From IMG/VR virus record IMGVR_UViG_3300035698_002801, positions 1-39,168 of that record: a DNA stretch of 39,168 nucleotides; one strand, written 5' to 3'. Under the pieces are notes generated by a model that was not told the DNA's origin, ran no database searches, and saw only the letters and a program-made list of their open reading frames with translations. This document shows, one piece after another, positions 1,935-34,428 of this stretch; position 1 is the stretch's first letter, and every line of letters begins with the position of its first letter. This stretch comes from a virus. The translations under genes and the position numbers were made by a program.

Positions 1935-3088
1935 TGTCAATTATGCCGTCAACCGAAGATAAAGCCAAAGTAAAACAAAAGGCAATTGAAACGTATAATG
2001 ATACATTAGACAATGCCAAAACAACTATGATTACGATCATAAAAGATAAGATATATTCAATTATAAAAAGTTGTTTTATTATTCCACTATCAATTAATCA
2101 AATAATAATTGCTATAAAAACAATTAAAGATACCTCTAAAGATGCGGTAACAACATATCAAAACACAAAAGAATCTGCTGATACTATTAAAGCTATTGGT
2201 ACAGATACTATAACTGCTGCCGCTACTAAAAAGACAGTAGAAGAGTATAAAAACAATAAACTTAATTCTGATCCTATTAATGTAAATGCTGGAGTTGAGG
2301 AACAAGAACAAATATTGGCTACAGTTGATCCAGAAATTGAACCAGATAATACTAATGCTGGGCTTCTGTTAAAATTTAATGGTGCAAAAGTTAAACTTAA
2401 TTCCATTGAAGAATTATATACAATTGTAAAAAAGATTAATAATAAACTTTCAACTGAATCTGTTGCATCTACTAGAACATGGGTACATAAAATTTTACAT
2501 ACCCATCCACTATTAGACAAAAAAATAACCAATTTAGAATTCTTTAAAGAAACGTCAAGTGAAACTGGATCAACGTATATTATGTATACACCAGATACTC
2601 AAACATTGGCATTAGAAGATTGGGGAAGTGGATTAGCGCAACCATTAAGAAGAATATTAGAATCTAAAATGGACAATCACACTTATAATATTATAAACGA
2701 TAATTATTATAAGTTAAATTTAGGAATGACTAGAAATATATCTACCGAATATTTTGATGCTCGTAAAAATCCAAATAATAATGTGTTAAATAAGAGTATA
2801 TTATCTAATGATTTTCATATTGTTGGTGATTATACATTTAGAGAAGATCACATGGAAAATAATGAATTAGCGTTATATTTAATGACAGCACTTATAAATA
2901 TTGTTGGTGGATCAGGTAGATTGATAAATTGGTTATCATCAGTAAATAATTATGAAACTGCAATATGTAAAGGTGTTATTATAAATGTTGAAGGTGATAA
3001 AGTAATCGTTAATATTAAAGGTGATAAAATTGGTGTTATTGCTACCGTTATTGATGAAACACTAATAACACCAGGAAAACATAACTAG
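1934..3088 (+). CDS. Baseplate/tail protein of unknown function
   Basis: I do not recognise this 384-residue protein. Residues about 36-66 form a long hydrophobic, isoleucine-rich helix, and residues about 66-130 are Ala/Thr/Lys-rich and likely helical. The last 40 residues have a beta-strand pattern (KGVIINVEGDKVIVNIKG), such as occurs in small OB or SH3-like barrels. It lies between the predicted hub and the spike in a co-directional operon, starts by TAATG overlap and has AAGGAAT upstream. This points to a virion tail-tip or hub-associated structural protein. The hydrophobic helix might be a membrane-active or tape-measure-contacting segment, which is inference only. Confidence 0.55.
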   Translation: MSIMPSTEDKAKVKQKAIETYNDTLDNAKTTMITIIKDKIYSIIKSCFIIPLSINQIIIAIKTIKDTSKDAVTTYQNTKESADTIKAIGTDTITAAATKKTVEEYKNNKLNSDPINVNAGVEEQEQILATVDPEIEPDNTNAGLLLKFNGAKVKLNSIEELYTIVKKINNKLSTESVASTRTWVHKILHTHPLLDKKITNLEFFKETSSETGSTYIMYTPDTQTLALEDWGSGLAQPLRRILESKMDNHTYNIINDNYYKLNLGMTRNISTEYFDARKNPNNNVLNKSILSNDFHIVGDYTFREDHMENNELALYLMTALINIVGGSGRLINWLSSVNNYETAICKGVIINVEGDKVIVNIKGDKIGVIATVIDETLITPGKHN

Positions 3089-3106
3089 ACTAATTAGGAA
3101 ATATAA

Positions 3107-5227
3107 ATGAATATACAATATACTGGCTCATATCTTGGTATAGTCGTACAAAATGATGATCCAGAACATAGAGGTAGAGTAAAGGTATTTGTTCCCCATA
3201 TATCTGTAACGCTGTATGATAATTGGAATGAAAATAAGAAAGATAAAAAATTCAAATTTCCAGATTCTATAACTAATCCCGATATCATAGCTATTATGGA
3301 ACCATTAAAAGAGGTTCTTCCTTGGGCAGAATGTGCCGCACCATTGTTTGGTGGTAATGCAAGTGGTAGATATAATGCTAATAAAACTAAAGGAACCACA
3401 TCAGATTCAAATTATTGGAAAGATAACGTATTTCAAGAGGGTAATAGACCAATACAAAATTTTATTGGTAATAATGTATATTCTGACGCATTTTCAGAAA
3501 CTGGAAAGAATGATAATAAGTTTGTTAATCAATATTCATGTCAATATACACCATCTAATTATTCTAATTTAGCTAAGGGATTGTTTACTATACCTAATGT
3601 TGGTTCACATGTATGGATATTTTTTGCTGGTGGTGATGCAAACATGCCGGTTTATTTTGCCGCATCTTATGGGGAAGAAGATTGGAAACGAATATATACA
3701 TTAGATCAGACCAAAGAAGATACATTTACATCAACAGATTATCCCGGTGCCTATGAAAATATATCTACTAACGAAACTGCTGTTGAAGCTGATAAACGAA
3801 CATTTAGATCTAAAACTGTTTTTAATAGTAATAAACATAGTATTGAACTTATAGATACAGACAATAGAGAAATTCTAAAAATGACACATTTCTCTGGATC
3901 ATTTAAAGAGTTTTGTAATCATACTAATATAGAACTTGCCACAAACAATGATCAAAAAATGGTTATTGGTGATCAATTTTATACTGTTCAAAAAAATCAA
4001 AGTTTATATATTGGTAATACTCAAGAAATGATAATTACTGGTGATAGATATAAAACTATTGGGCCTAAAAAGTATGAAAACGCAGCAAAGATTTTAGAAA
4101 TACTTAGAGAAATTCATGAATATAAACGATTATTTAATGGAATGAGAGCGAATACAGATACCCCTGGTGAGGTATCATCTCATCAACGTAGATCTGGAAC
4201 ATTTAACCCATGTCCAGCTTGTGGTGGAGTGCCATATACACCTGCTACATGGACTATTCAACCAATTAATTTTTTTGCTCCTTTAGTAACACAAGAATAC
4301 TTAAATACCGGCAATTTTCTTGAGACTGAAAATACCATTGGTTATTGGCTTGGAAGTAAATGTGCGGTCTGTAATGGAACAGGATTAAGTCCATCTACAC
4401 AAGATGGAGATTGGGATATAGACCCAAGTAAAGTCCCTGGTGGCGCATTAGATGAGTTAATAAAAGAGAAAACCCCAGAATTAATGAATTTACAAAAAAC
4501 TCTTGGTGAAGGTGACGAGATTAGTGTTATTGCAAAAAATAAAATTGAAACTATTGGTCTTGTGGTAAATGATCTTAAATCATTTAGAGTTGATCCAATT
4601 GGCAAATTAAGAATTGACGGTGTTAATGTTGCATTAGAAGGTACATATTCAACATTTAAACCATCACCTCATGTAGAATATGTTGATGTTGATGATATTC
4701 CAGGTGGAGATTATAATTTAACTTGCGGAAATAAGTATAAACTTCTTGTAGGTGCTAACGGTATTAACATAAAAACTTTTGGCCCTATAGATATGTATGG
4801 ATCAATAGTAAATTTAGTTGGAGAACAAGTAAATATATCTTCTCAAAATGAAGTTCTTATTGATGGTGGTGAACGATTTTCTATTCGTGCAAGAAAGATT
4901 TCACTTATTCCCATCGAGCATCAACCAGTAGTTATTGACGGACAAATGCACGTTACTAGAAATGCAATTATAGGTGGAGGGTTATTTGTAGAAGGTGAAA
5001 TAGGTATGCTTCATATGACTTCACCATTTGAATATTATGCAACAGAACCTGAAACGGGTAGTATAGTAAGTCTTCCAAATGATTCAACAACTGGAGTTGC
5101 CCCTCATTCGCATGTTATACCACCACATACCCATATGTATAAACATAGTGCTGTTACCTTTCTACCAACCAAAGAAGCTGTAAGAGATAGTATGAGAACT
5201 CAAGGGGGTAATATTAATGACGAATAA
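3107..5227 (+). CDS. 5: Baseplate central spike, gp5-like, with inserted zinc motif and no lysozyme domain
   Basis: This is the predicted membrane-puncturing spike below the tail tube. Residues about 3-85 form an OB-fold start (YLGIVVQNDDPEHRGRVKVF), and about residues 160-200 complete it with IPNVGSHVWIFFAGGD, both typical of gp5/VgrG-type spikes. No T4-type lysozyme domain is visible. The middle contains two cysteine pairs, C369-x2-C372 (CPACGG) and C419-x2-C422 (CAVCNGTG), resembling a DnaJ-like zinc site. The C-terminal third is rich in short Gly/Val/Ile strands consistent with a beta-helix, and ends in a His-rich tip (HSHVIPPHTHMYKH) that may bind metal. AGGAAAT precedes the ATG. The end overlaps the next gene by 11 bases. 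Confidence 0.8.
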   Translation: MNIQYTGSYLGIVVQNDDPEHRGRVKVFVPHISVTLYDNWNENKKDKKFKFPDSITNPDIIAIMEPLKEVLPWAECAAPLFGGNASGRYNANKTKGTTSDSNYWKDNVFQEGNRPIQNFIGNNVYSDAFSETGKNDNKFVNQYSCQYTPSNYSNLAKGLFTIPNVGSHVWIFFAGGDANMPVYFAASYGEEDWKRIYTLDQTKEDTFTSTDYPGAYENISTNETAVEADKRTFRSKTVFNSNKHSIELIDTDNREILKMTHFSGSFKEFCNHTNIELATNNDQKMVIGDQFYTVQKNQSLYIGNTQEMIITGDRYKTIGPKKYENAAKILEILREIHEYKRLFNGMRANTDTPGEVSSHQRRSGTFNPCPACGGVPYTPATWTIQPINFFAPLVTQEYLNTGNFLETENTIGYWLGSKCAVCNGTGLSPSTQDGDWDIDPSKVPGGALDELIKEKTPELMNLQKTLGEGDEISVIAKNKIETIGLVVNDLKSFRVDPIGKLRIDGVNVALEGTYSTFKPSPHVEYVDVDDIPGGDYNLTCGNKYKLLVGANGINIKTFGPIDMYGSIVNLVGEQVNISSQNEVLIDGGERFSIRARKISLIPIEHQPVVIDGQMHVTRNAIIGGGLFVEGEIGMLHMTSPFEYYATEPETGSIVSLPNDSTTGVAPHSHVIPPHTHMYKHSAVTFLPTKEAVRDSMRTQGGNINDE

Positions 5228-10702: not shown

Positions 10703-11731
10703 TTACCGATTACCTTTATGAGCACTAAAAGATGTAAATTTATTTATGCCGTTTAATACAGTCAATCTAATTGTTTCATCTAAGTCTATTTTTGCTTTCC
10801 AATTAGTTAGTCGTTCCATCTTAACAGCACTAAATAATCTACGAATACTATCTTCATAACCAATTCCATATAACGTTTTACCATCTATATATTCTATTGG
10901 TAGCGGAGTAATACCAGTTATATCTTGAAATACTCGTGTCATACGTTCTGCTAATTCAGTAATTGTTATTTCATTATTAGAATTACCAATATTTAAAATT
11001 TCTCCAGTACATTTATTCCAATTATTTATAACCGAAATTATACCATCTACAGCGTCATCAATATATGTATAACAACGTTGTTGTGTTCCAGGGGTTACAA
11101 CTTGCATGGATTTATTAGCAAATAACGCATTAAGAAAACAACTAGGTACTCGTGGTATCCAAGTTTTATTTTCAATGTTATTTATAGAAGGCAACCAATC
11201 CATATCATGACTAATAAAATTAAATGGTCGTAATATACAACAATTCATTTTACTAGATAAAATATAATTATCTAATAATAGTTTACTAGTAGCATATATC
11301 CAACGTGATTTAGTAGCTGAACCAAATGTACAGTTTGACTCTTCTGTGTATGGTTCTGACCAAGTTTTACCATAGGTTTCTGACGTACTAAAATGTATAA
11401 ATGGAATTTTTGTTTTATGTATACTATCTATAATATCTTTATTAACCATAAAATCTAAATTAAATGTTTCTATTGGATGTTTTACATAATAACTTGGTGT
11501 TGCAACCGCAACGCAATTATAAATCATATCTGGTTTAAATTCTTCTATCGCCCAATGCATAGATTGTTTAGTATCATTAGACAAGTTTAATTTTATATAT
11601 ATACCACCACTATTATTATTTGTACGAATTCGATTAATATCTATACATGTAACAATATCATTCATTATTACATGTTTATCTCTCATATGTGAACCTATAA
11701 ATCCATCTCCACCTAATATTAATACTTTCAT
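10703..11731 (-). CDS. NAD-dependent sugar-nucleotide dehydrogenase/epimerase, ArnA C-domain type
   Basis: This is an extended short-chain dehydrogenase of 342 residues. It has the NAD-binding GGDGFIG (residues 7-13), the STSETYG active-site serine region (115-121) and the catalytic Y146-x3-K150 (YATSK). The segments RWIYATSKLLLDNYI, ILRPFNFI and TQQRCYTYIDDAVDGI look most like the dehydrogenase/decarboxylase domain of ArnA, which converts UDP-glucuronate to a UDP-4-keto-pentose. A UDP-xylose synthase or epimerase activity is an alternative. It overlaps the gene before it as ATGA and is followed by the glycosyltransferase-like gene, so it probably supplies an activated sugar for it. Confidence 0.75.
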   Translation of the reverse strand: MKVLILGGDGFIGSHMRDKHVIMNDIVTCIDINRIRTNNNSGGIYIKLNLSNDTKQSMHWAIEEFKPDMIYNCVAVATPSYYVKHPIETFNLDFMVNKDIIDSIHKTKIPFIHFSTSETYGKTWSEPYTEESNCTFGSATKSRWIYATSKLLLDNYILSSKMNCCILRPFNFISHDMDWLPSINNIENKTWIPRVPSCFLNALFANKSMQVVTPGTQQRCYTYIDDAVDGIISVINNWNKCTGEILNIGNSNNEITITELAERMTRVFQDITGITPLPIEYIDGKTLYGIGYEDSIRRLFSAVKMERLTNWKAKIDLDETIRLTVLNGINKFTSFSAHKGNR

Positions 11732-17148: not shown

Positions 17149-20100
17149 TCAACCTAATAATTCTAATAAATCACATTCAGTTTCTTTAGTTGGATTATTT
17201 AATGTCCAACCAACCGCATCATATAATCGTTTTACCGCAGGTGTTACATTTTTATTAAACATAAAAACCTTATCTATATTTACGTCAAATTCTTTTGGAT
17301 ATATATCTTTAAATGCAATACTTTTAATATTATATTTATTTGGTTCGACATAAAACGTTTTTATATCATCACCTGATACTATTTGTTCATATTTTTTTCT
17401 TATTCCTAATATATAAAGTAAATGATTATAGTATATAGCAGATTTTACATGTCGAGGGGTTCTATTTCCTATTGTAAATCCATTAGCCATATTTTCAAAT
17501 TTTTCATAATTATTAATACCAGTAGGTGTTGCAATATCTTCAACATTAAGTTGTAAATATTCTTCATATGCTTGTCTAAATGCTTCATCAGTTTTCTTTT
17601 TATTTCTAGTTGTTAACATAGTTTTTGAAATATATTTAATAAGTGGTTTAACCTTTTTTGGAATTCGAATACTAACAACTTCAACGCCAGTATATTTAAT
17701 TTCTTTTTCTGGATCAGGTTTAAATCCATCAACGTCTAATACATGTAAAATATATCGTTTCTTTTCTAGAAATAACCCAGAATTACAAATAGTTTCACGT
17801 TTAAATACAAATCTAGGATCTTTAATATTACAAGTATTAGTTGCCCAAGTACCAATTTTAGTATTTAATTCATGTTCCATACCTTCTATAATTTCATACG
17901 CATCTTTTGTTATATCACCATTCTCATTTGCTAACTTCTTATTAACTTTTTTCAATATTGGATCAATAGTAATATATACACTATTATGTACTAATATATC
18001 ATTAGCAAAAAATGTATGATCAGTATTATCTTCCATTTCTATATCATACACATATTCATGATCAAAAGTGCCAATACATTTAACTGATTCAGTTTCAGAT
18101 ATATCATATCCAAAGTTTTTTTTGGTCATCATTTTATCATCAGATTTTATATCTTTAGGTGGTACCCGAATCAGTTCACCGTTTCGTATGACTATACAGT
18201 TATGATCTTCAGTCATTACAACCGATTTCCCATTTACAGAAACTTTATATTTTTTCTTAGTAACTTTATGACGTATTAAATTTTTAACTTTTCTAAAGTC
18301 AACAAAGTTAATTTTACTAATAAATGTTAATATATTAAGATCCTTATTTTTTAGTGATATTAACTCATGACCATGACTTGTTATTTTTTTATTATCTATA
18401 TCATATAGGTTATATAAATCTTCCATAGAAAATTCTCCTTTATTAGAAATAATTTTCGTTTCTGAAGAATATGAATCAGTATCTCCATAAATCGTACAAT
18501 CTTCGGTAACTCCATACTTATGTTCTACAAATCTATTAATAATATCCGAAGATTCTTTAATACATGCCTGTCCAGTAAGTGTTACACTTGCGGCGGCATC
18601 AATATCATAAAATGGACTATGTTTATTTGCAAACGCACCATATAATCGATTCATAAGAATTTTCAAAGTATACTGCATAACATCTAATTCAATTATAGCC
18701 TTAGTATGAACGATATACATATCAGATCCCTTATTACAATGTTTTATGTCCACTTTATGCTTCTTTAACTTTTTCTGATTTTCTAATCGCTCACTATAAA
18801 TAGAATCTAAAAGTTCTGGGCAAAATCCTTTATTCTTTTGATGATATATAATCTTAGCTTTTGTTATTGCAAGTTGCTCAGTTTGAACCCATTGTTTAAA
18901 TTGCGTATGTGGTAATTCATATATTTTGTCATTGACAAGTCTAACTTCTACAGTAGAATCTGTTTTATTAATTATTTTACCAATTTTTGTTTCAGGAGAA
19001 ATGTTTGCACTAATAATAGTATTTGGATATAGACTATTAGCATCAAAACTTACAATACTGTCACGAAGTCCACGTTGAGGTTCTCTTACAAATCCACCTT
19101 CATAATTTGCCACATCTGTTATCGGAAATGTAGGAATGATCATACCCTTATTTAACGCTTTAAGTGCCATAGCACCCGTTACGATTGCAATGGTACCTAG
19201 TGCCTGTTCAAAACTTGTATAACCCATATACGCTAATTTACGAACGATTTGAAGATAATGTAGAGCCTCTTCTAATTCAACTAAAATATTAACATCTTGA
19301 ATATTGTATTCACAAAACTTTTGCCAATTATTATCAGCAAATGCGGGCAAATTAGATGCGGGAACCGGATTCTTATTTTGATTTAATTCTATTTCCCCAA
19401 TAAAATCTAATGTATATCTTTCCCGTTTTTCTCTTGAGAATGTTTTATAAACAGCCATATAATCTAAATGACTTATTCCTTTTATATACCAATGATCTTC
19501 ATGTTTTCCATATTTTGTTATTACATTTTCTCTACAATATAATTCTTTAACTGGCGAAAGATTATTCGCCATACTTTCTCCAAGTATTAGTTTAATTCGA
19601 TTAATAATATATGGAATATCAAAACTTTCAGAATTCCAACCAGATATAATATCAGGATAATTAGATCTCCAGAAATTTATAAAGTTAATTAACAACTCAG
19701 ATTCAGACTTACATTTAACATATGTAACATTATTTGCAGGAATATAATTTCCGCCATTTTTTCCACCAGTTCCCCAAGTATAAAATCGCTTTGATATTGA
19801 ATCATAAATTGTTATAACATTTATTGGATCAGGGGCAGTTTTTGGATTTGGAAAATCTCCAGGAGAATACGTTTCAATATCAAGAAAGAATGTTTTTAAT
19901 GGATATTGAAAAAAATTAGCATCGCCATTTTTTGAACCAAACATATCAATTAAAAATTGTTGTTCTGTTGGAATATTATAAAATACCCGTTTAAGTCCAG
20001 AATGTTTGATATATTTATCACGATCCCAAGAATTTATAAACGATTTTTTTGCTAATTTAGTATTATAAATAGACAACGCATCAGGATTTGATTCGTTTTC

Positions 20101-20214
20101 AACATAAATATATGGTTTAACTGGAATAGTTAGAGTACATCGTTTACCTTTATCATTCCATGTCCATAGGGTAATATTGTTTTTTGGTATATTATAATAT
20201 AAGTTTCTATACAT
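17149..20214 (-). CDS. 43: DNA polymerase, family B, gp43-like, with intein
   Basis: This is the replicative DNA polymerase with 3'-5' proofreading exonuclease. ExoI is FFLDIETYS (D112, E114), ExoII is SGWNSESFDIPYI and ExoIII is YNIQDVNIL. Polymerase motif A is SFDANSLYPN, motif B is ILMNRLYGAF, and motif C YGDTDS is split by an intein at residue 581. Removing the 164-residue intein leaves an 857-residue enzyme, near T4 gp43 (898). The start ATG has GAAAGGATG upstream and a TTGACA box behind it. It is followed by uvsX and gp41 in the same direction. Activity depends on splicing, because the insertion lies between the catalytic aspartates and the rest of the palm. Confidence 0.93.
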   Translation of the reverse strand: MYRNLYYNIPKNNITLWTWNDKGKRCTLTIPVKPYIYVENESNPDALSIYNTKLAKKSFINSWDRDKYIKHSGLKRVFYNIPTEQQFLIDMFGSKNGDANFFQYPLKTFFLDIETYSPGDFPNPKTAPDPINVITIYDSISKRFYTWGTGGKNGGNYIPANNVTYVKCKSESELLINFINFWRSNYPDIISGWNSESFDIPYIINRIKLILGESMANNLSPVKELYCRENVITKYGKHEDHWYIKGISHLDYMAVYKTFSREKRERYTLDFIGEIELNQNKNPVPASNLPAFADNNWQKFCEYNIQDVNILVELEEALHYLQIVRKLAYMGYTSFEQALGTIAIVTGAMALKALNKGMIIPTFPITDVANYEGGFVREPQRGLRDSIVSFDANSLYPNTIISANISPETKIGKIINKTDSTVEVRLVNDKIYELPHTQFKQWVQTEQLAITKAKIIYHQKNKGFCPELLDSIYSERLENQKKLKKHKVDIKHCNKGSDMYIVHTKAIIELDVMQYTLKILMNRLYGAFANKHSPFYDIDAAASVTLTGQACIKESSDIINRFVEHKYGVTEDCTIYGDTDSYSSETKIISNKGEFSMEDLYNLYDIDNKKITSHGHELISLKNKDLNILTFISKINFVDFRKVKNLIRHKVTKKKYKVSVNGKSVVMTEDHNCIVIRNGELIRVPPKDIKSDDKMMTKKNFGYDISETESVKCIGTFDHEYVYDIEMEDNTDHTFFANDILVHNSVYITIDPILKKVNKKLANENGDITKDAYEIIEGMEHELNTKIGTWATNTCNIKDPRFVFKRETICNSGLFLEKKRYILHVLDVDGFKPDPEKEIKYTGVEVVSIRIPKKVKPLIKYISKTMLTTRNKKKTDEAFRQAYEEYLQLNVEDIATPTGINNYEKFENMANGFTIGNRTPRHVKSAIYYNHLLYILGIRKKYEQIVSGDDIKTFYVEPNKYNIKSIAFKDIYPKEFDVNIDKVFMFNKNVTPAVKRLYDAVGWTLNNPTKETECDLLELLG
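17983..18474 (-). mobile_element. Mini-intein in DNA polymerase motif C
   Basis: This is a 164-residue in-frame insertion (residues 581-744). It starts with serine directly after YGDTD and ends with a VHN, followed by extein serine (VHN|SVYITI). The first block is SYSSETKIIS; a block B-like MTEDHN contains the conserved histidine; near the end are the strand EYVYDIEMEDNTDHTFFAND and the LVHN splice motif. No homing endonuclease domain fits in the length, so it is a mini-intein with a Ser nucleophile and a Ser +1 residue. YGDTD/S is a known polymerase intein insertion point. Confidence 0.9.
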
Positions 20215-20282: not shown

Positions 20283-21563
20283 TTATTCTGGATTATATTG
20301 ACGTAATGCTTTACGGTTAGAATCACCATATTTTGTAAAATATAACTCTAAATATTGATCAAGATGATCATCTAACCACATTGTATCTGCATATTCTCTA
20401 CTATCTTTAGATATTTTCATATAATATGCTTGATCTTTAGTTAAGCGTTTAAGATGGTCTATCAGATCATCACCACTTTTAAACCTTAATGGTGCATCTT
20501 TATATGTTATCATATCCTGATATACGCCTGGAAGTCCTTGATACGCAGCTTCTAGAAATTTAATATTACTTTTGGCCCTATTAAAATGACAATCCATTAA
20601 TGGAGCAATACTAGCGGTAAGATTAAGATCATACATAGCTTTTGGATAATTTATAAATGATGCCCATGATGCATGTTCTATTTCTCCACTATCAATAAAC
20701 GGTTTAAGAGGTAATGGATAACACCCCATCATAACCCATTTATAGTCTTTTCTTGTTGCTATTATTTGTTTAACGATATGTGTAAAATCATCCTTTTGAC
20801 CAGTTCTGTTTGTCACATCTATATGTGTACCAGACCCACAATATCCAATTCTTGGACGTTTTTTATGTTTATCAAAATTTTCGGCAAGTCTACTTTTATT
20901 ATATAATCCATCAGCCCACATTTTAGGTGCCATATTAGGAATAACGGTTATATTAGGATTACCAGTTTTATCACGATAATAATTCTTCATATATTCACAA
21001 GTAACAGATATTTCATCTGATTCTTGCATAATTGATACAGCACTTTTAAGAATTTCTTCTTGTTCAAACGCAACCTTACATCTATTAAAATCTGGAATAT
21101 CATCTTTAAAAATAATATCATCAATTTCATATATAATCTTAAAGTTTAATTTTTGTGAACCTTCCTTAAGAAATTTAACAAATTGTAATTGCATAGGTGT
21201 GGCTTGTCGTTGTAATCTAACAGCTTTTAGACCACTATAAAATCTTCCATCATGCACCATTGTAGTTAATCCATTAATAATAGCCTGTTGTGTTCCATTA
21301 AGTAATAATTCAGGCCATAACATTCTCCAAAATCCACAACCACCATAATCAGCATAATAATTAAGTGCACGATTTAGAGTAGCCCCCGGCATTGGTAATG
21401 GTGGTGGTTTAATACCAACTCGTTTTTGACCTACTACAGTCGTTTGTGGAATTCCTATTGGCATTCCTAATGGCGCAAACGGAATCCCAATATTCTGTGG
21501 ACTATATGAAATTTTTGATTGTGTCTGTGTCTGTGTCTGTGGCATTTTAAACTTTAAACTCAT
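20283..21563 (-). CDS. Glycosyltransferase, GT-B/GT4-like, T4-type phage family
   Basis: This is a 426-residue transferase. After a 55-residue low-complexity Pro/Gln/Gly-rich start (with a TQTQTQ repeat) come YYADYGGCGFWRMLWPELLL, IIYEIDDIIF, ITVIPNMAP, RIGYCGSGTHIDV, YKWVMMGCYPLPLKPFI and IKFLEAAYQGLPGVYQD. The last group is the nucleotide-sugar binding part of GT-B enzymes. The pattern matches a family I know from T4-like marine phages near gp43. The likely role is modifying DNA, virion or host glycans. The ribosome site AAAGGAGAT is strong. Its 5' end overlaps the stop of gp46 by ATGA, which suggests coupled expression. Confidence 0.75.
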   Translation of the reverse strand: MSLKFKMPQTQTQTQSKISYSPQNIGIPFAPLGMPIGIPQTTVVGQKRVGIKPPPLPMPGATLNRALNYYADYGGCGFWRMLWPELLLNGTQQAIINGLTTMVHDGRFYSGLKAVRLQRQATPMQLQFVKFLKEGSQKLNFKIIYEIDDIIFKDDIPDFNRCKVAFEQEEILKSAVSIMQESDEISVTCEYMKNYYRDKTGNPNITVIPNMAPKMWADGLYNKSRLAENFDKHKKRPRIGYCGSGTHIDVTNRTGQKDDFTHIVKQIIATRKDYKWVMMGCYPLPLKPFIDSGEIEHASWASFINYPKAMYDLNLTASIAPLMDCHFNRAKSNIKFLEAAYQGLPGVYQDMITYKDAPLRFKSGDDLIDHLKRLTKDQAYYMKISKDSREYADTMWLDDHLDQYLELYFTKYGDSNRKALRQYNPE

Positions 21564-23410: not shown

Positions 23411-24223
23411 TTATATAATTTCGTTAAGTTCACCATATGACACCGTTATAGCAGTTTCAATATCTATAGGAGTATAAAATTTCAACAATTTATCAATATT
23501 CATTACATTATTCACTAAATATAAATTTTCTCGTTCTCTTAATTGTTTTGCTGTATTAATACCTATAATATCTAATCCACACCAAATCGCTATTCTTGCT
23601 ATTGTAGCTGACCCAATTTGTGCTACATTAAATATACCACATTGCTTCGCTAAAATCAATTCTTTTGTTGCACCAACTATAGTTGAAGTAGATGTAATAC
23701 TATCACACTGATCCCCTGTATATGTATTAAAGTTTGGAAGCTTACATAAAAGATTATTCTTGTTCTTAATATCACTAAAATATAATCGTGGACGTAATAT
23801 TAAATCTGTTTGATGATTACATCCTTGTTCACCAACCCATTTAGTAATAGTATAATTACAATGTGCGGATATAAAATCAGTTTCTTTATTATCTTTTGTT
23901 GTATCATCATATAAACAACCCGTAGATATATGTACAAATTTTTTATTATTACGATTACAAAGAGAACTTAAAATATTTGGAAGTTTACCATTAATATATA
24001 ATGCTTCTTTAAAATTATTTTTATCTTCACACCATCGTGTATTAGATTTACCTATACAATTTACAACAACATCAGCATGTTCTATAATATTTTCTAATTG
24101 TTTATTATCTATATCTTTTGGAGATTTACCAGCATCAAATTTATCTCTTCCCCATACGTTAAATCCATGACGTTCAAACTCTGTTCCTAAATACCCCTTA
24201 CCTAATACTAATATTTTATTCAT
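23411..24223 (-). CDS. NAD(P)-dependent sugar reductase, RmlD-like
   Basis: This is a 270-residue short-chain dehydrogenase with nucleotide-binding GKGYLG (8-13), an NCIGKSNT substrate segment, HISTGCLY at about 98-105 (catalytic Ser/Thr) and Y124-x3-K128 (YTITK). The compact size and sequence order fit dTDP-4-dehydrorhamnose reductase-like enzymes, which make a deoxysugar nucleotide. The substrate is unproven. The ribosome site AGGAGAAAGG is strong. It is the first gene downstream of the glycan/purine block, near gp46. Confidence 0.7.
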   Translation of the reverse strand: MNKILVLGKGYLGTEFERHGFNVWGRDKFDAGKSPKDIDNKQLENIIEHADVVVNCIGKSNTRWCEDKNNFKEALYINGKLPNILSSLCNRNNKKFVHISTGCLYDDTTKDNKETDFISAHCNYTITKWVGEQGCNHQTDLILRPRLYFSDIKNKNNLLCKLPNFNTYTGDQCDSITSTSTIVGATKELILAKQCGIFNVAQIGSATIARIAIWCGLDIIGINTAKQLRERENLYLVNNVMNIDKLLKFYTPIDIETAITVSYGELNEII

Positions 24224-24255
24224 CCTTTCTCCTATTAATTAATATTTCAATAACA

Positions 24256-24738
24256 TTAATTCTTATTTATTCTATTATTAACCATTTTGTCTTCCGTTTT
24301 TATCCAATTATTATTTATCTTTTCAAAAAATATAAAGTGTTTCAACTTAACATTAAAGAATAATTCATTAATAGTATATATAGTATCCTTTTCATGTCTA
24401 TTTGACGACTGAACATCCCTCATTTTAGCTAAACAAAACGCATCATAATTATTATTAAATAACATATATAACTCTGATGCATTTTTGTGTTTTCTATATG
24501 GTACATCAACTGTTGGATAATATACAGGCCAAGACTTCCCTTTCCAAGGAGTTTTATGTTCAGCTTCTACTTTTATCCATGTATTATTAAAGAATATCTT
24601 AAGATCATACGTATACGAATCAGTATCCTGCAAATCTACGTTATATCCATTAGATTCCCAAAACATTTTAGCTTCTAATTTAGCTTTAGAATCATGTTTA
24701 TTATAATCTAATTTTGAAAATGGTTTATAATTTTTCAT
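24256..24738 (-). CDS. Possible PD-(D/E)XK nuclease-fold protein
   Basis: This is a 160-residue protein. Residues about 20-62 give a helix, then the strand-turn-strand YDLKIFFNNTWIKVEAEHK, which contains an Asp and an EAExK spacing like the D-(x)n-ExK active site of restriction-endonuclease-fold proteins. WKGKSWPVYYP and a basic middle follow. I cannot confirm catalysis and the family is unassigned. It starts by TAATG overlap with the GMP reductase-like gene and is co-transcribed with it. A DNA repair or modification-dependent nuclease role would be inference. Confidence 0.4.
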   Translation of the reverse strand: MKNYKPFSKLDYNKHDSKAKLEAKMFWESNGYNVDLQDTDSYTYDLKIFFNNTWIKVEAEHKTPWKGKSWPVYYPTVDVPYRKHKNASELYMLFNNNYDAFCLAKMRDVQSSNRHEKDTIYTINELFFNVKLKHFIFFEKINNNWIKTEDKMVNNRINKN

Positions 24739-25763
24739 TAATTTTTACTTTCGACTTTTCCACCACTACCTATTTTTATAAAATTACATTTTTCTTTATA
24801 TTCTATTAGATTAGATGCACCTACATATGAACATGCAGATTGAATTCCTTCTTTAATTTCTCTAAGTAAAAATTTAACATGATCTCCAAGATTAACTTCT
24901 TCAGTTACACCTTCTACAAATTCTGGTCTATTATTAGAATCTCCCTTATTAGTACCAGCAGCAGAACCACCATGTACTTTATAACGACTTCCATCTTTAC
25001 GTTTATAAACGTTTCCAGGAGTTTCCATACAGCCAGAAAAGAATGAACCAAGCATTATTTGATCAGCAAATTTAAGTGCCTTTGTAATGTCACCAATAGT
25101 TTTAATTCCACCATCAGCTATAATAGTTGGTCCATCATTACATAACTGTTCGTTATATATATTTTCTAATGCCCAAAGTTGTGGAACTCCTACACCAGTA
25201 TTTGTTCTAGTCTGACAATATGCCCCTGGTCCAATACCTACTTTAACGGCATTAGCCCCCCAATTTCCTAAATCTAGGTATCCCTGAGAAGTAGCTATAT
25301 TACCAGCAATTACAAAAATATCATTATATTCACTTTTAATATAGTCAATAGTTTCTTTCATCATTATACTGTGACCATGTGCAATATCAATACAAAAATA
25401 TCTAGCTCCCACATTGTATAACGCCTGAAATCGTTCTTTATTATCTCCATTAACACCAATAGAAACTATACATGATTTACGATGTTCTTGATTTGTATCA
25501 GGCAAACTTGTACAATTACTTGTTAATTTAAAATCTGATACTGATTCTTCAATAGAATTAAATCTATGTAAAACTCCAAGTGCTCCACGAGTTTTTATTT
25601 CAGCAGCCATACGAGGACCAGTAATACTTTTCATATTAGCAGATAATATAGGTATATTAATATCTATATTTCCTACTGATGTCGAAATATTAACATCTTT
25701 ACGTGATCTAATTTCTGAATACTTTGGTTCTATTAAAACATCATTAAATGTATACGTTTCCAT
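24738..25763 (-). CDS. GMP reductase/IMP dehydrogenase family enzyme
   Basis: This is a TIM-barrel purine enzyme of 341 residues without CBS domains, close to E. coli GuaC (347). It starts YTFNDVLIEPKYSEIRSR, has GALGVLHRF, the catalytic loop GIGPGAYCQTR (C183; GuaC and IMPDH usually have GPGSxCTTR), IIADGGIKTIGDI, LGSFFSGCMETPG and a C-terminal ACSYVGASNL. The last motif and the absence of CBS favour GMP reductase, which converts GMP to IMP. This could feed adenine nucleotide synthesis for an AT-rich genome (inference). Transcription would start from a strong promoter, and five 23-bp repeats form the leader. Confidence 0.8.
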   Translation of the reverse strand: METYTFNDVLIEPKYSEIRSRKDVNISTSVGNIDINIPILSANMKSITGPRMAAEIKTRGALGVLHRFNSIEESVSDFKLTSNCTSLPDTNQEHRKSCIVSIGVNGDNKERFQALYNVGARYFCIDIAHGHSIMMKETIDYIKSEYNDIFVIAGNIATSQGYLDLGNWGANAVKVGIGPGAYCQTRTNTGVGVPQLWALENIYNEQLCNDGPTIIADGGIKTIGDITKALKFADQIMLGSFFSGCMETPGNVYKRKDGSRYKVHGGSAAGTNKGDSNNRPEFVEGVTEEVNLGDHVKFLLREIKEGIQSACSYVGASNLIEYKEKCNFIKIGSGGKVESKN

Positions 25764-30236: not shown

Positions 30237-30968
30237 TTAAAATTTAGACCAATTAGGATCGATTTTTAAATAGTTTGATAATATTATTATATCTTCTTTC
30301 CGTTGTGGTTGCATAGTTTTCCACATTTCATCACTATCTCTTTCATGATTATTACTTAACATTCGTTTAGCAGTATCATCTATCTTACGTCCACCAAAAA
30401 CAAAATGATTATGATGTATAAGAATATTTGATTTATATACAACACGATCAAAAACATTAAAATGTGCATACATCCAATTATCAGAATAATTTATTAAAAA
30501 TTCTGGTCTTGTAAAATATCCCATGACATCATAATATTTTCTATGAACAAATGCATTAACACTTAATTTAGGTCCATGATATCCATCATTACAATGAACT
30601 AATTTTATACAATCTTTTGGTAATTTATCACCAGTAAATTCATTTAAGATTTCTGTATCCCATGAATTAGTTTTGAATATCATATCATCACCAATATATC
30701 CAAAAATTTCATCTTTGCAATTTTTAGCTAAAATATTCCATATATTATTTATGCCAATAAATTTTCCATCATTATGAATAGGAATAATATTAACAAATGG
30801 AATTGCATCAGCTATTTTATACGCAATTTCTCTTGTTGGATCATCATCATCTATTCCAAAATATAAATTTATATTGTTTATATCATCTACTGATGTAATA
30901 ATAGATGAAATTAACGTAAGTTGTAAATTTAATCGTTTTCTACTTGGTATTAATAGTCCTATTTTCAT
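30237..30968 (-). CDS. Glycosyltransferase family 2-like protein
   Basis: This is a 243-residue protein starting MKIGLLIPSRKRLNLQLTLI with LYFGIDDDDPT and EIFGYIGDDMIF, acidic motifs typical of GT2-like folds. I moved the start to 30968, because the ATG there follows a TAATG overlap with the upstream gene and the longer frame would overlap by 94 bases. A YFTRPEFLINYSDNWMYAHF segment and a histidine-rich IHHNHFVFGG could form the acceptor side. The sugar is unknown. Confidence 0.6.
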   Translation of the reverse strand: MKIGLLIPSRKRLNLQLTLISSIITSVDDINNINLYFGIDDDDPTREIAYKIADAIPFVNIIPIHNDGKFIGINNIWNILAKNCKDEIFGYIGDDMIFKTNSWDTEILNEFTGDKLPKDCIKLVHCNDGYHGPKLSVNAFVHRKYYDVMGYFTRPEFLINYSDNWMYAHFNVFDRVVYKSNILIHHNHFVFGGRKIDDTAKRMLSNNHERDSDEMWKTMQPQRKEDIIILSNYLKIDPNWSKF

Positions 30969-31813
30969 TATAATATTTTTCTCGCATAGTTTTTTTGAAT
31001 ATCTTCTAAAATAGCCATTACATTTTGTGACGGTATATCTGGAGTTTGTTGTGGATACCATCCATGTAAATATTTATAGAATTCCATACCTTCACGAAGA
31101 TTTTTATTCCATTCTGGAGTTTTAGCAATTGAACTTTTTTCAATACAACCCTCAATATCACTAAGATACTTCCAACTCTCCGCAATATCTGCAAACCACC
31201 AGAACGGAGGATGTAACCTTGCTTTAATAATTCTATATGTTAATTCTACATGTTCCCATGCGTTATGAAAGTGTTCATCGTGATATCCAATGGCCTTGAT
31301 AACATTTTTATAAAAATATGTAAATGCACCTACACTATTTGGATATAATGCCAATTCAATTCCATCTCCATATTCAACAATTTGTCTTGGATTAGGGGGC
31401 GAATGTTGATCTAACTCTTGACGGGTATTAATCATCATTGGTTCATTAGTCTTTTGCTTTCTATTAGCTGGACCTTGTAACGCATAATTCAAATGCCATA
31501 TACCACTTGCTTCTGCGGTATGAATATATTGTTCAAATACAGTTTCGTTTTTAATAAGTACATCATCTTCCATAATAAATATATGATCACATCCTTTTTG
31601 AATAAGATGCCTCATTGCATCATTCTTACTTATTCCAACACCTTTATTTCTCGTATGTTGAATAACTTCATTACCAAGATATATGTTATTATTATATTGC
31701 GAACCATCGTTAACAATTATAACTTCATCAATACTTGGTACTAAAGGTAAACTTTCTGATAATCTATCTTCGGCATTACATGTAATTATTCCTAATCCTA
31801 TTTTATTTTTCAT
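30968..31813 (-). CDS. Glycosyltransferase family 2 protein
   Basis: This is a GT2-type protein of 281 residues. It has IGLGIITCNAEDRL, VIIVNDGS (nucleotide-binding strand), NKGVGISKNDAMRHLI and IFIMEDDVLI (an acidic metal-site motif). I chose the ATG at 31813, with the AAGGGGTGAT ribosome site that overlaps the gp47 stop, over an earlier ATG at 31846. It has a Trp/Tyr-rich C-terminal region (PPFWWFADIAESWKYL), common in acceptor binding. It is immediately downstream of gp47. Confidence 0.75.
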   Translation of the reverse strand: MKNKIGLGIITCNAEDRLSESLPLVPSIDEVIIVNDGSQYNNNIYLGNEVIQHTRNKGVGISKNDAMRHLIQKGCDHIFIMEDDVLIKNETVFEQYIHTAEASGIWHLNYALQGPANRKQKTNEPMMINTRQELDQHSPPNPRQIVEYGDGIELALYPNSVGAFTYFYKNVIKAIGYHDEHFHNAWEHVELTYRIIKARLHPPFWWFADIAESWKYLSDIEGCIEKSSIAKTPEWNKNLREGMEFYKYLHGWYPQQTPDIPSQNVMAILEDIQKNYARKIL

Positions 31814-31814
31814 A

Positions 31815-32867
31815 TCACCCCTTATTGCATATTTCATATAATTCATATGTTTCGTCTAAAATTAAATCTTTATCGTTATATTCTGTCATTTTAATAAATT
31901 CATTAATAGACTTTTTAATATCTACAGCAGTAAATTCATATTTTGACTCGTCTACTGATACAGTATTTGCTAATTCATAATCTATTTTTAATGATCTTGC
32001 TCCATATTTATCAAAACTAGAAGTAAACAACATTAATTTATCTATATCTTTTATTTCTTGATCTACTATAAAACTTACAAAATTATTTTTAAACTCTTTT
32101 CGTATATCGTTTGTAACTTTGCCCATTGATGTTATTTCAGACATACGTATTTTTTTATGTTGTGGTGATTTTGTGTTTTCTATAAATTCGTATTTGCCTG
32201 TTGGTATATTAAGATAATAATATCCTTTTGAATCAGTTCCACAATCACCCCAATCTAATTCATATGGACTACCAACATAAAGTATTCTTCCATGTTTATA
32301 TTTTCTATCTGTTCTTAAATGAAAATGACCCGTTATAATCATAGGAGCTTTCTTTAAAAGATTAGATGCACTTAAACCCTTAGTACACACTTTACTTTTT
32401 GATATATTAAAACCATTAATTGCTAAATGTCCAAATATATAATCACTTTTTGGTATATTTTCTATATATGTTCCCCACGGACAAAATACAAGTTTCTTTC
32501 CAAAAACATTATATTCTTCTATTACATCAATAATATTAATATTATTCCAACCAGAAAAAAGTGATAAAGAATGTATATCAGACCTATCTTTATAATAGGC
32601 ATCATGGTTTCCAACTATAATATTAATATTAAAATCTTTCCACTTAGTAAATAATTCATTCATAACATGTAAAGATTGTACACAAATCTCTTCTCTATCA
32701 TCATTAACATCACCACAAATGATAATATCTTTAATATTGTCATTTTTAAGTTGTTGTTTGAATTGATCTGCAAATTCAAGTGTTATTTTATGCCATTCTG
32801 AACTATTTTGATGTTTACCAATATGTATATCAGATACTATAGCAACCCTTTCATTTTTAATCTTCAT
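31815..32867 (-). CDS. 47: Recombination nuclease, gp47/SbcD/Mre11-like
   Basis: This is the nuclease partner of gp46. Phosphoesterase motifs are SDIHIG (D13, H15), CGDVND (D53), GNHD (86-89) and a later GHFHLR, all typical of Mre11/SbcD. The start at 32867 (MKIKNERVAIVSDIH) puts the first motif at the expected distance; it overlaps the end of the sigma gene by 11 bases and has no strong Shine-Dalgarno. In-frame ATGs at 32903 and 32927 are less likely. The protein has 350 residues, close to T4 gp47 (339). The subunit partner gp46 is 8.4 kb away. Confidence 0.9.
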   Translation of the reverse strand: MKIKNERVAIVSDIHIGKHQNSSEWHKITLEFADQFKQQLKNDNIKDIIICGDVNDDREEICVQSLHVMNELFTKWKDFNINIIVGNHDAYYKDRSDIHSLSLFSGWNNINIIDVIEEYNVFGKKLVFCPWGTYIENIPKSDYIFGHLAINGFNISKSKVCTKGLSASNLLKKAPMIITGHFHLRTDRKYKHGRILYVGSPYELDWGDCGTDSKGYYYLNIPTGKYEFIENTKSPQHKKIRMSEITSMGKVTNDIRKEFKNNFVSFIVDQEIKDIDKLMLFTSSFDKYGARSLKIDYELANTVSVDESKYEFTAVDIKKSINEFIKMTEYNDKDLILDETYELYEICNKG

Positions 32868-34428
32868 AGGAGTGCCCAGTTTCGTTATTAACGCTATTTT
32901 CATCATTATTATCACTAATTTGATCATCTGGTATATTACCAGTATTAATTAGAGTTTCATATACTTCTGATTGATACCCAAGTATTGCCTCGTGATTTCG
33001 TTTTTCTTTTTTTATTCGATTACAAAACGCATTAAATGCAATTTTAGTATAATAAGAAAACGGATTTCCCTTTTCTGGACTAAATTTTTTATTCCATAAT
33101 GCTTTAAACATTTTTTCTATTGCATCACCTATCATCTCTTCTTTATATGTATTTCCTGTTATATAAATATTTCCATTACGTCTACAAATAAATGTACCAT
33201 AATCTGTTTTTGGACACCATACCGTTCCGTTATAATATGTAGTTGCTACGTTAATATTAATGGATTTATTTTCTGAGTTGCCACCATGAAAATCTATAGA
33301 TTCTCCTTTACATGTATATTTTGGCTTATAATATATATGTACAATGTAATTATCATTAACTGTTAATTCAGTATATGTTGTTAACCCTGATAATGTACAT
33401 AATGCAACAAAACTATCAATATGATGTTTATCTAAATGAGTATACGACCAAAAAATAGGATTAGATGTTGTAGATTCCTTCTTATACCATATATCATTAT
33501 CTATTATTGTTTGTATTAATAACCTTTTCTGAGATTGTGTTATTGAATTTATAAACATATAACTTAATCTTTTATTAGGAGCTAATGTAATTATATCAGT
33601 AGCAACACCACCAATTATTTTAAATTCAATAATATCTTTTTCGTTATTTCTAGAATATTCTGTAAAGTTAACATTTAGTGCATTTAATAATATTCGAATC
33701 TTATCTGAACATATACCATAATTCTGAAATATTGTAACATAATTATTTGTTTCTATAAAATAACTACCGCTTGTTACAGCCAAACCAATTAGCTTTATAA
33801 ATGAATCCTCATATTGAATAGACGTATCTGACGTTACCGGTAATCCCATTAATTGAATGTTATCCATAGATGTAATATATTCAACAGATGTAAGTTTATT
33901 ATTAGTAACAAACTTATGACCCGTAGTAACTAAAGCATCTAATCCCGACGTAGTTAAATGATGCATATTACCATTATATGATGTATTAATAAACATATCA
34001 TTGATTTTAGACCATTTTAACAATTTATTATAAACATCATATGATAAAATTGTATCATCTACTGTTATATCTTTATAATTTAACCACCCACGTTTACATA
34101 ATGCCTCAGTTTCTTCATCAACACAATAATTTATAAAGTTAGGAGCAAACCCAAGACGATTTGCTATATCACTAATAGATTTAGCAAGTTCTTCTGTAAG
34201 TTTATCATCATTATAGAATTTAAGTATTTGTGTTTCAAAAACTGCTTTATCAATATAGTTTTCTTTCTTCTTTCTTCCACGTTTCTTTTTAACTAACGGA
34301 TTCATAAAGCTTTTTGGATCATTTAAATCCATAGATTCTTCTTTATAATCATCTTTTGTTAATTTAATAGACCCAGATGCCCCAACAATTTCTTCTAAAT
34401 CAGTGTTCGTTAATTTCCTTGATTGCAT
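32857..34428 (-). CDS. 55: Late sigma factor, gp55-like, with intein
   Basis: This is the predicted phage late-transcription sigma factor of 523 residues, of which 325 are an intein. The N-extein (1-101) has a basic KKKRGRKKK patch and ISDIANRLGFAPNFINY. The C-extein resumes at TYKEEMIGDAIEKMFKALW and continues with NPFSYYTKIAFNAFCNRIKK, matching the region-2-like core of gp55; together they make 198 residues (T4 gp55 has 185). The acidic C-terminal tail could bind the sliding clamp. It overlaps uvsW by 29 bases and gp47 by 11 bases, and has an AAAAGGAAAA ribosome site. It would direct late promoters with gp45. The intein must splice out for a working factor. Confidence 0.85.
   Translation of the reverse strand: MQSRKLTNTDLEEIVGASGSIKLTKDDYKEESMDLNDPKSFMNPLVKKKRGRKKKENYIDKAVFETQILKFYNDDKLTEELAKSISDIANRLGFAPNFINYCVDEETEALCKRGWLNYKDITVDDTILSYDVYNKLLKWSKINDMFINTSYNGNMHHLTTSGLDALVTTGHKFVTNNKLTSVEYITSMDNIQLMGLPVTSDTSIQYEDSFIKLIGLAVTSGSYFIETNNYVTIFQNYGICSDKIRILLNALNVNFTEYSRNNEKDIIEFKIIGGVATDIITLAPNKRLSYMFINSITQSQKRLLIQTIIDNDIWYKKESTTSNPIFWSYTHLDKHHIDSFVALCTLSGLTTYTELTVNDNYIVHIYYKPKYTCKGESIDFHGGNSENKSININVATTYYNGTVWCPKTDYGTFICRRNGNIYITGNTYKEEMIGDAIEKMFKALWNKKFSPEKGNPFSYYTKIAFNAFCNRIKKEKRNHEAILGYQSEVYETLINTGNIPDDQISDNNDENSVNNETGHSYED
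33151..34125 (-). mobile_element. Intein with degenerate LAGLIDADG domain in the late sigma gene
   Basis: This is a 325-residue insertion (residues 102-426). It starts with Cys in CVDEETEALCKRGWLNYKDI (block A) and has a histidine in the block B-like DALVTTGHKF. It ends with FICRRNGNIYITGN before extein Thr (GN|TYKEE), so the +1 residue is Thr. The centre resembles a LAGLIDADG/DOD homing endonuclease: LIGLAVTSG at intein residues 112-120 and LLIQTIIDND at 202-211. The first motif has Ser where a catalytic Asp is expected (VTDG), so cutting activity is probably lost. Confidence 0.85.

Follow-up and report, generated by a model that had tools for sequence, protein, structure and literature searches.

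The window, which is the whole stretch of 39,168 nucleotides that we analysed (IMG/VR virus record IMGVR_UViG_3300035698_002801), carries on its minus strand a single open frame of 523 residues (32857-34428) that matches PHROG_234, the phage late sigma factor family, with E=3.8e-17. The match improves to E=9.9e-24 once residues 102-426 are omitted and the flanking halves are joined, and the joined halves also match T4 gp55 in PDB entry 7d7c (E=2e-8). Assignment to gp55 rests on this sequence match, which includes sigma region 2, and on three clamp-contact acids, E431, D435 and E438, which align with E70, D74 and E77 of T4 gp55 in the 7d7c alignment. From the gp55 match we predict that the product serves late transcription together with the sliding clamp. 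The features of the gene are as follows:

32857-34428, minus strand: gp55-type late sigma factor precursor, 523 aa, made up of extein, intein and extein (PHROG_234, PDB 7d7c, homologue in phage B23)
34126-34428, minus strand: N-extein, residues 1-101, ending in APNFINY (aligned with the intein-free relative L115, and with T4 gp55 up to Y63)
33151-34125, minus strand: intein, residues 102-426, 325 aa, from Cys1 to Gly-Asn (975-bp insertion relative to L115, shared splicing residues, fold)
33805-34125, minus strand: Hint (splicing) domain, N-terminal part, residues 102-208, with block B T168/H171 (alignment and model)
33253-33804, minus strand: degenerate LAGLIDADG homing endonuclease domain, residues 209-392 (I-DmoI, PI-SceI and PI-PfuI folds, lost positions, absence from mini-inteins)
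33769-33771, minus strand: Ser220 (AGC) at the first catalytic acid position (Glu in 67 of 75 alleles, Asp in 1 of 75)
33493-33495, minus strand: Asp312, the second catalytic acid, kept, with Ile313 rather than Gly as the next residue (Asp in 68 of 75 alleles)
33151-33252, minus strand: Hint domain, C-terminal part, residues 393-426, containing WCPKTDYGTFICRRNGNIYITGN (block F Cys in 75 of 75 alleles, terminal Asn in 74 of 74 readable)
32857-33150, minus strand: C-extein, residues 427-523 and stop, beginning TYKEEMIGDAIE (PDB alignment; clamp-helix contacts of PMC7892883)

Neighbouring genes encode UvsY-like and UvsW-like (helicase) proteins, gp47/SbcD, gp46/SbcC, a DNA polymerase, UvsX, a DnaB-like helicase and a single-strand binding protein, a neighbourhood that fits a T4-like replication and late-gene cluster. 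The virus is a bacterial virus related to T4, and it is without a close named relative, its replicative helicase reaching at most about 31% identity to the best phage records among the matches listed. Interspersed among the replication genes are several that resemble genes for glycosyltransferases, nucleotide-sugar epimerases and dehydrogenases (30237-31846, 20283-21563, 10703-11731 and 23411-25763), and these sugar-synthesis genes look as if they had been inserted into the T4-like core.

The empty site and the splicing domain

In the uncultured collinear relative L115 the same gp55 gene is free of an intein. When the 975 bp were removed from the window in silico, the two sequences aligned at 72% nucleotide identity over 4.7 kb with a gap-free junction, and the L115 gp55 frame is continuous through the insertion codon (TTTATTAATTAT|ACGTATAAAGAAGAA), which is the best single piece of evidence that the insert is an intein. 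Many other gp55 genes are likewise uninterrupted: the best 80 joined-extein matches among short-type genes are all intein-free as judged by match span, and 79 of 79 readable nearest C-exteins of the long type are empty, both counts being nearest-match samples rather than estimates of prevalence. The window is one metagenomic contig, which might suggest an assembly artefact or chimera, but independent contigs and the isolate B23 have this insert at the identical codon, and L115 supplies the collinear gene without it. The independent same-site copies already refute an artefact, to which we attach practically no credence.

Synechococcus phage B23 (MN695335.1, b23_0289, QGT54902.1) has an intein in the same gene at the same insertion codon with 42% identity to the window, but differs in having intact endonuclease acids (LVGWVITEG, VNADG) and Ser at +1. 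In its record the B23 gene product is called a hypothetical protein and bears the remark "phage T4-like gp55"; its intein is unannotated, and neither the record nor the B23 paper (PMC7171214) mentions one.

Further alleles were collected by scanning IMG/VR environmental contigs with alignments, which is a partial sampling; a two-sequence alignment used as query recovered them, and a single-sequence pattern search of the viral contigs gave no match. Short gp55 genes contributed alleles L004-L008, and the larger set was found in a second, longer gp55 family (PHROG_12791), giving 75 distinct aligned same-site sequences with the window and B23 included. All 75 share Cys1, the block B His and the block F Cys. 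The terminal Asn is present in 74 of 74 readable alleles, and the +1 residue is Thr (62 alleles) or Ser (12 alleles) wherever it can be read.

The window itself carries the class 1 splicing residues C102, T168/H171, N426 and T427. We rejected assignment to class 3 since Cys1 is present in all 75 alleles and the window's aligned block B stretch contains no Trp; of the class 3 WCT triplet (B12, F4, G5), the block F Cys is present but the complete triplet is not. A penultimate His is usual in class 1 inteins but is not obligatory. Gly occupies this position in the window and in 73 of 74 readable alleles. According to PMC5050341, mycobacteriophage class 1 inteins often lack the penultimate His, Gly, Lys or Ser replaces it in other phage class 1 inteins, and one mycobacteriophage intein with a penultimate Gly splices well, better than its own His mutant. 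The penultimate Gly is thus no obstacle to splicing. The Bethlehem RDF intein described in the same paper shares with the window a class 1 nucleophile at position 1, a penultimate Gly and an endonuclease domain, but its host protein is an RDF and not a sigma factor.

Sequence models of Pfam and NCBIfam made no intein call for the insert. An AlphaFold model (mean pLDDT 80, with values around 90 for most of the intein) has the Hint fold, with a beta-rich N-terminal part at pLDDT of about 90, and Foldseek matched it to inteins with E down to 4e-11. The best PDB matches are TliVMA, PI-SceI and PI-PfuI, all inteins with endonucleases, followed by I-DmoI. The top fold matches, PhoVMA/TliVMA (PMC8966425; PDB 7qst, 7qss, 7qsu), reside in an archaeal ATPase gene and are not close in sequence. 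Inteins of phage portal, terminase, DNA methylase and thymidylate synthase genes show about 21-28% identity (tblastn) or weak family matches and differ from the window in gene and insertion site.

These results bear out most of what an earlier note had read from the DNA, namely that a 325-residue intein at 33151-34125 splits a gp55-like late sigma factor: the extein halves match PHROG_234 and 7d7c, the middle segment is predicted to adopt the Hint fold, the intein-free gene of L115 is joined at the same codon, and the translation confirms the N-terminal Cys, the C-terminal Gly-Asn and the extein Thr.

We propose that the entire frame is translated as a single precursor from which the Hint domain would cut itself out by means of Cys1, the block B Thr/His pair, the terminal Asn and the +1 Thr, with residues 101 and 427 being ligated to give a working gp55. 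Splicing of the gp55 precursor is predicted from its conserved residues. The missing penultimate His might instead indicate that the insert splices no longer, so that gp55 would be inactive or would function as two pieces or with the insert retained. We regard this as very improbable as every other splicing residue is retained, the Gly-Asn end is common to 73 of the 74 readable alleles and is found on a phage intein that splices when tested, and Hint conservation is not significantly reduced (see below). In addition, the clamp-binding residues of the C-extein are conserved, and gp55 therefore appears to be under selection.

Decay of the endonuclease domain

The domain between the two Hint parts has a LAGLIDADG-helix fold, as indicated by its matches to I-DmoI, PI-SceI and PI-PfuI. 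An active endonuclease of this type has two catalytic acids, and in the window these positions hold Ser220 and Asp312. The first motif reads LIGLAVTSG, as the earlier note had reported; its Ser stands as described, but the note's "catalytic Asp place" does not, for the usual acid at this position is Glu (67 of 75 alleles). The second motif, which that note had left aside, keeps its Asp and has Ile in place of Gly. Neither Glu codon shares a base with the Ser220 codon, AGC, at any position, and a single base-call error is therefore not the explanation of the substitution. Moreover, a conserved QK pair has become His-Leu.

In order to compare the two domains we scored each row against the positions on which 85% or more of the remaining alleles agree, and counted the losses. 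By this measure 17 of 44 conserved endonuclease positions are gone from the window, against 8/44 in L004, 11/46 in L005 and 4/45 in B23 (23/135 pooled, p=0.006); a stricter threshold gave 13/36 versus 10/108 (p=0.0004). In the Hint domain the excess was not significant (10/60 versus 22/181, p=0.38). This pattern suggests that the endonuclease is decaying and the splicing part is being maintained, although the contrast is a moderate one because short-lineage alleles are in general more distant from the family consensus. Losses of endonuclease positions exceed those of the window only in L113 and L112, neither of which has the acids.

The note's proposal of a likely dead homing endonuclease thus gains comparative support, and we consider the enzyme to be probably dead, on the basis of one catalytic residue and the excess loss of conserved positions in a domain that is still full length. 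Retention of D312 and of the entire fold, together with the open frame, might be taken to mean that the endonuclease is still active with an altered active site, or nicks one strand. The open frame carries no weight here because a stop or frameshift within it would destroy gp55, and the second acid leaves room for a weak or nicking activity. Residual activity is nonetheless improbable in our estimation, given Ser at a position that is Glu or Asp in 68 alleles, the change of Gly to Ile in motif 2, the altered QK pair and the 17 of 44 conserved positions gone. The PhoVMA intein, likewise documented with a degenerate LAGLIDADG domain, is a precedent in which loss of the active-site acids accompanied loss of cleavage (PMC8966425).

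Alleles of the gp55 site and the homing cycle

In the homing-cycle model, invasion of a site by an intein is followed by fixation and then by loss of the endonuclease, after which the intein may become smaller or disappear (PMC8966425). The gp55 site is empty in L115 and many other genes; it holds full inteins with both acids in B23, L004, L005 and most long-type alleles, and full-length inteins whose acids are lost in the window, L088, L112 and L113 (first and second positions being Asn/Ala, Phe/Thr and Phe/Asn, respectively, in the last three). The endonuclease domain is partly deleted in L014 and is absent from the mini-inteins of L008 and L017. In the long-type gp55 of L017 (2428-3864), a short, unrelated-looking linker follows LSGNYSQLELDENLSLALSKV in the endonuclease's place. 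As judged from these sequences, the whole homing cycle is represented among the alleles of this one site.

We suggest that the intein formerly moved by homing into intein-free gp55 genes, which its LAGLIDADG endonuclease cut at the conserved NY|TY site, and that in the window phage cleavage has very probably been lost while splicing is retained. The gp55 protein is essential in T4-like phages, and splicing would be retained for this reason. The window intein would thus sit in the degeneration stage of the cycle. Taken together, we hold with high confidence that this is a class 1 intein in the gp55 of a T4-related phage, that it would splice out, and that its endonuclease, very probably without cleavage, is degenerating.

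Repeated jumps of the intein between short and long gp55 families had been expected, but the five short-gp55 inteins form one clade in the Hint tree (support 99/95), so that frequent crossing between families is unsupported.

The earlier note had also called an intein in a phage late sigma factor unusual. This holds for isolates, as B23 has the only gp55 intein among the matches listed from 50,697 phage records (a mini-intein allele may have escaped), but not for environmental contigs, with about 75 alleles. Matches in the genome collection at 21-26% identity look like distant inteins, with no same-site gp55 intein identified among them, and L031 and L033 from that collection are intein-free gp55 genes. 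We found no report of an intein in a late sigma factor in the open literature searched, though one may already be mentioned in other sources such as intein databases, and the entries examined in the intein-host table of PMC5050341 include no transcription factor. What is new is the host gene and the insertion site; the element itself is of a known kind.

Two candidates were set aside. ENKO_296 of Klebsiella phage fENko-Kae01 at first resembled a gp55 intein close to a sliding clamp, but was read from its sequence as an intein in a metallophosphatase; this unannotated intein lies in a metallophosphatase-like protein, after GNH (L003, 2773-4350). L016 holds a related intein whose host protein is not gp55-like; the match (1993-4584) is 36% identical to the window protein, and the N-terminal part of the host protein appears ParB-like by eye.

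With active-looking, point-mutated, half-deleted and mini-intein alleles among the 75 or so, and many empty genes, at one site of one essential phage gene in two gp55 families, the alleles form an unusually complete natural series that covers every homing stage and is well suited to tests of how viral inteins decay and are lost. It also suits the question of whether late transcription is limited in its timing by splicing of the precursor. Intein-bearing gp55 genes may be deposited as hypothetical proteins, as in B23, which is a warning for annotation.

Splicing and late transcription

The insertion point falls between the residues that match Y63 and T64 of T4 gp55, six residues before E70 of helix H3. 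In T4 gp55, E70, D74 and E77 of this helix bind the clamp helices of RNA polymerase (PMC7892883). An insert six residues ahead of the polymerase-binding helix means that splicing must precede gp55 function, and with the conserved clamp-binding acids beside the insert the precursor should not bind polymerase properly.

Unspliced gp55 should therefore be inactive, and only in this trivial way would splicing gate late transcription, as had been claimed; the sequence and comparative evidence gave no sign of delayed, sensed or regulated splicing. A stronger version would have the intein kept as a regulated switch whose splicing awaits a cue (temperature, redox state or replication, for instance) and thereby sets the time of late transcription. 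The location near the H3 clamp contacts and the expected inactivity of the precursor are compatible with such a switch, other inteins are documented to splice conditionally (PMC5790916, PMC6195587), and endonuclease-less inteins persist at the gp55 site (L008, L017). But the sequence indicates no sensor, and the best 80 short-type matches and all 79 readable nearest long-type genes are intein-free; with so many relatives lacking it, the intein is dispensable. Homing and decay account for the pattern without a regulatory role, and we judge a switch to be quite unlikely. Slightly less likely still is a post-translational timer in which conditional splicing of the gp55 intein would control the onset of late transcription, perhaps jointly with an intein in the DNA polymerase; if this were true, replication and late genes would both be switched on by protein splicing.

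This second intein (17983-18474, minus strand, 164 residues) lies inside the DNA polymerase frame 17149-20214, in motif C of a family B polymerase (YGDTD|SYSSET...ILVHN|SVYI). It matches Pfam Intein_splicing with E=1.2e-4, below the curated cut-off, and is too short to hold an endonuclease domain. A search of viral contigs for polymerase relatives of the window found none, and related phage polymerase inteins exist, such as that of Tenacibaculum phage PTm1, which is annotated as intein-containing.
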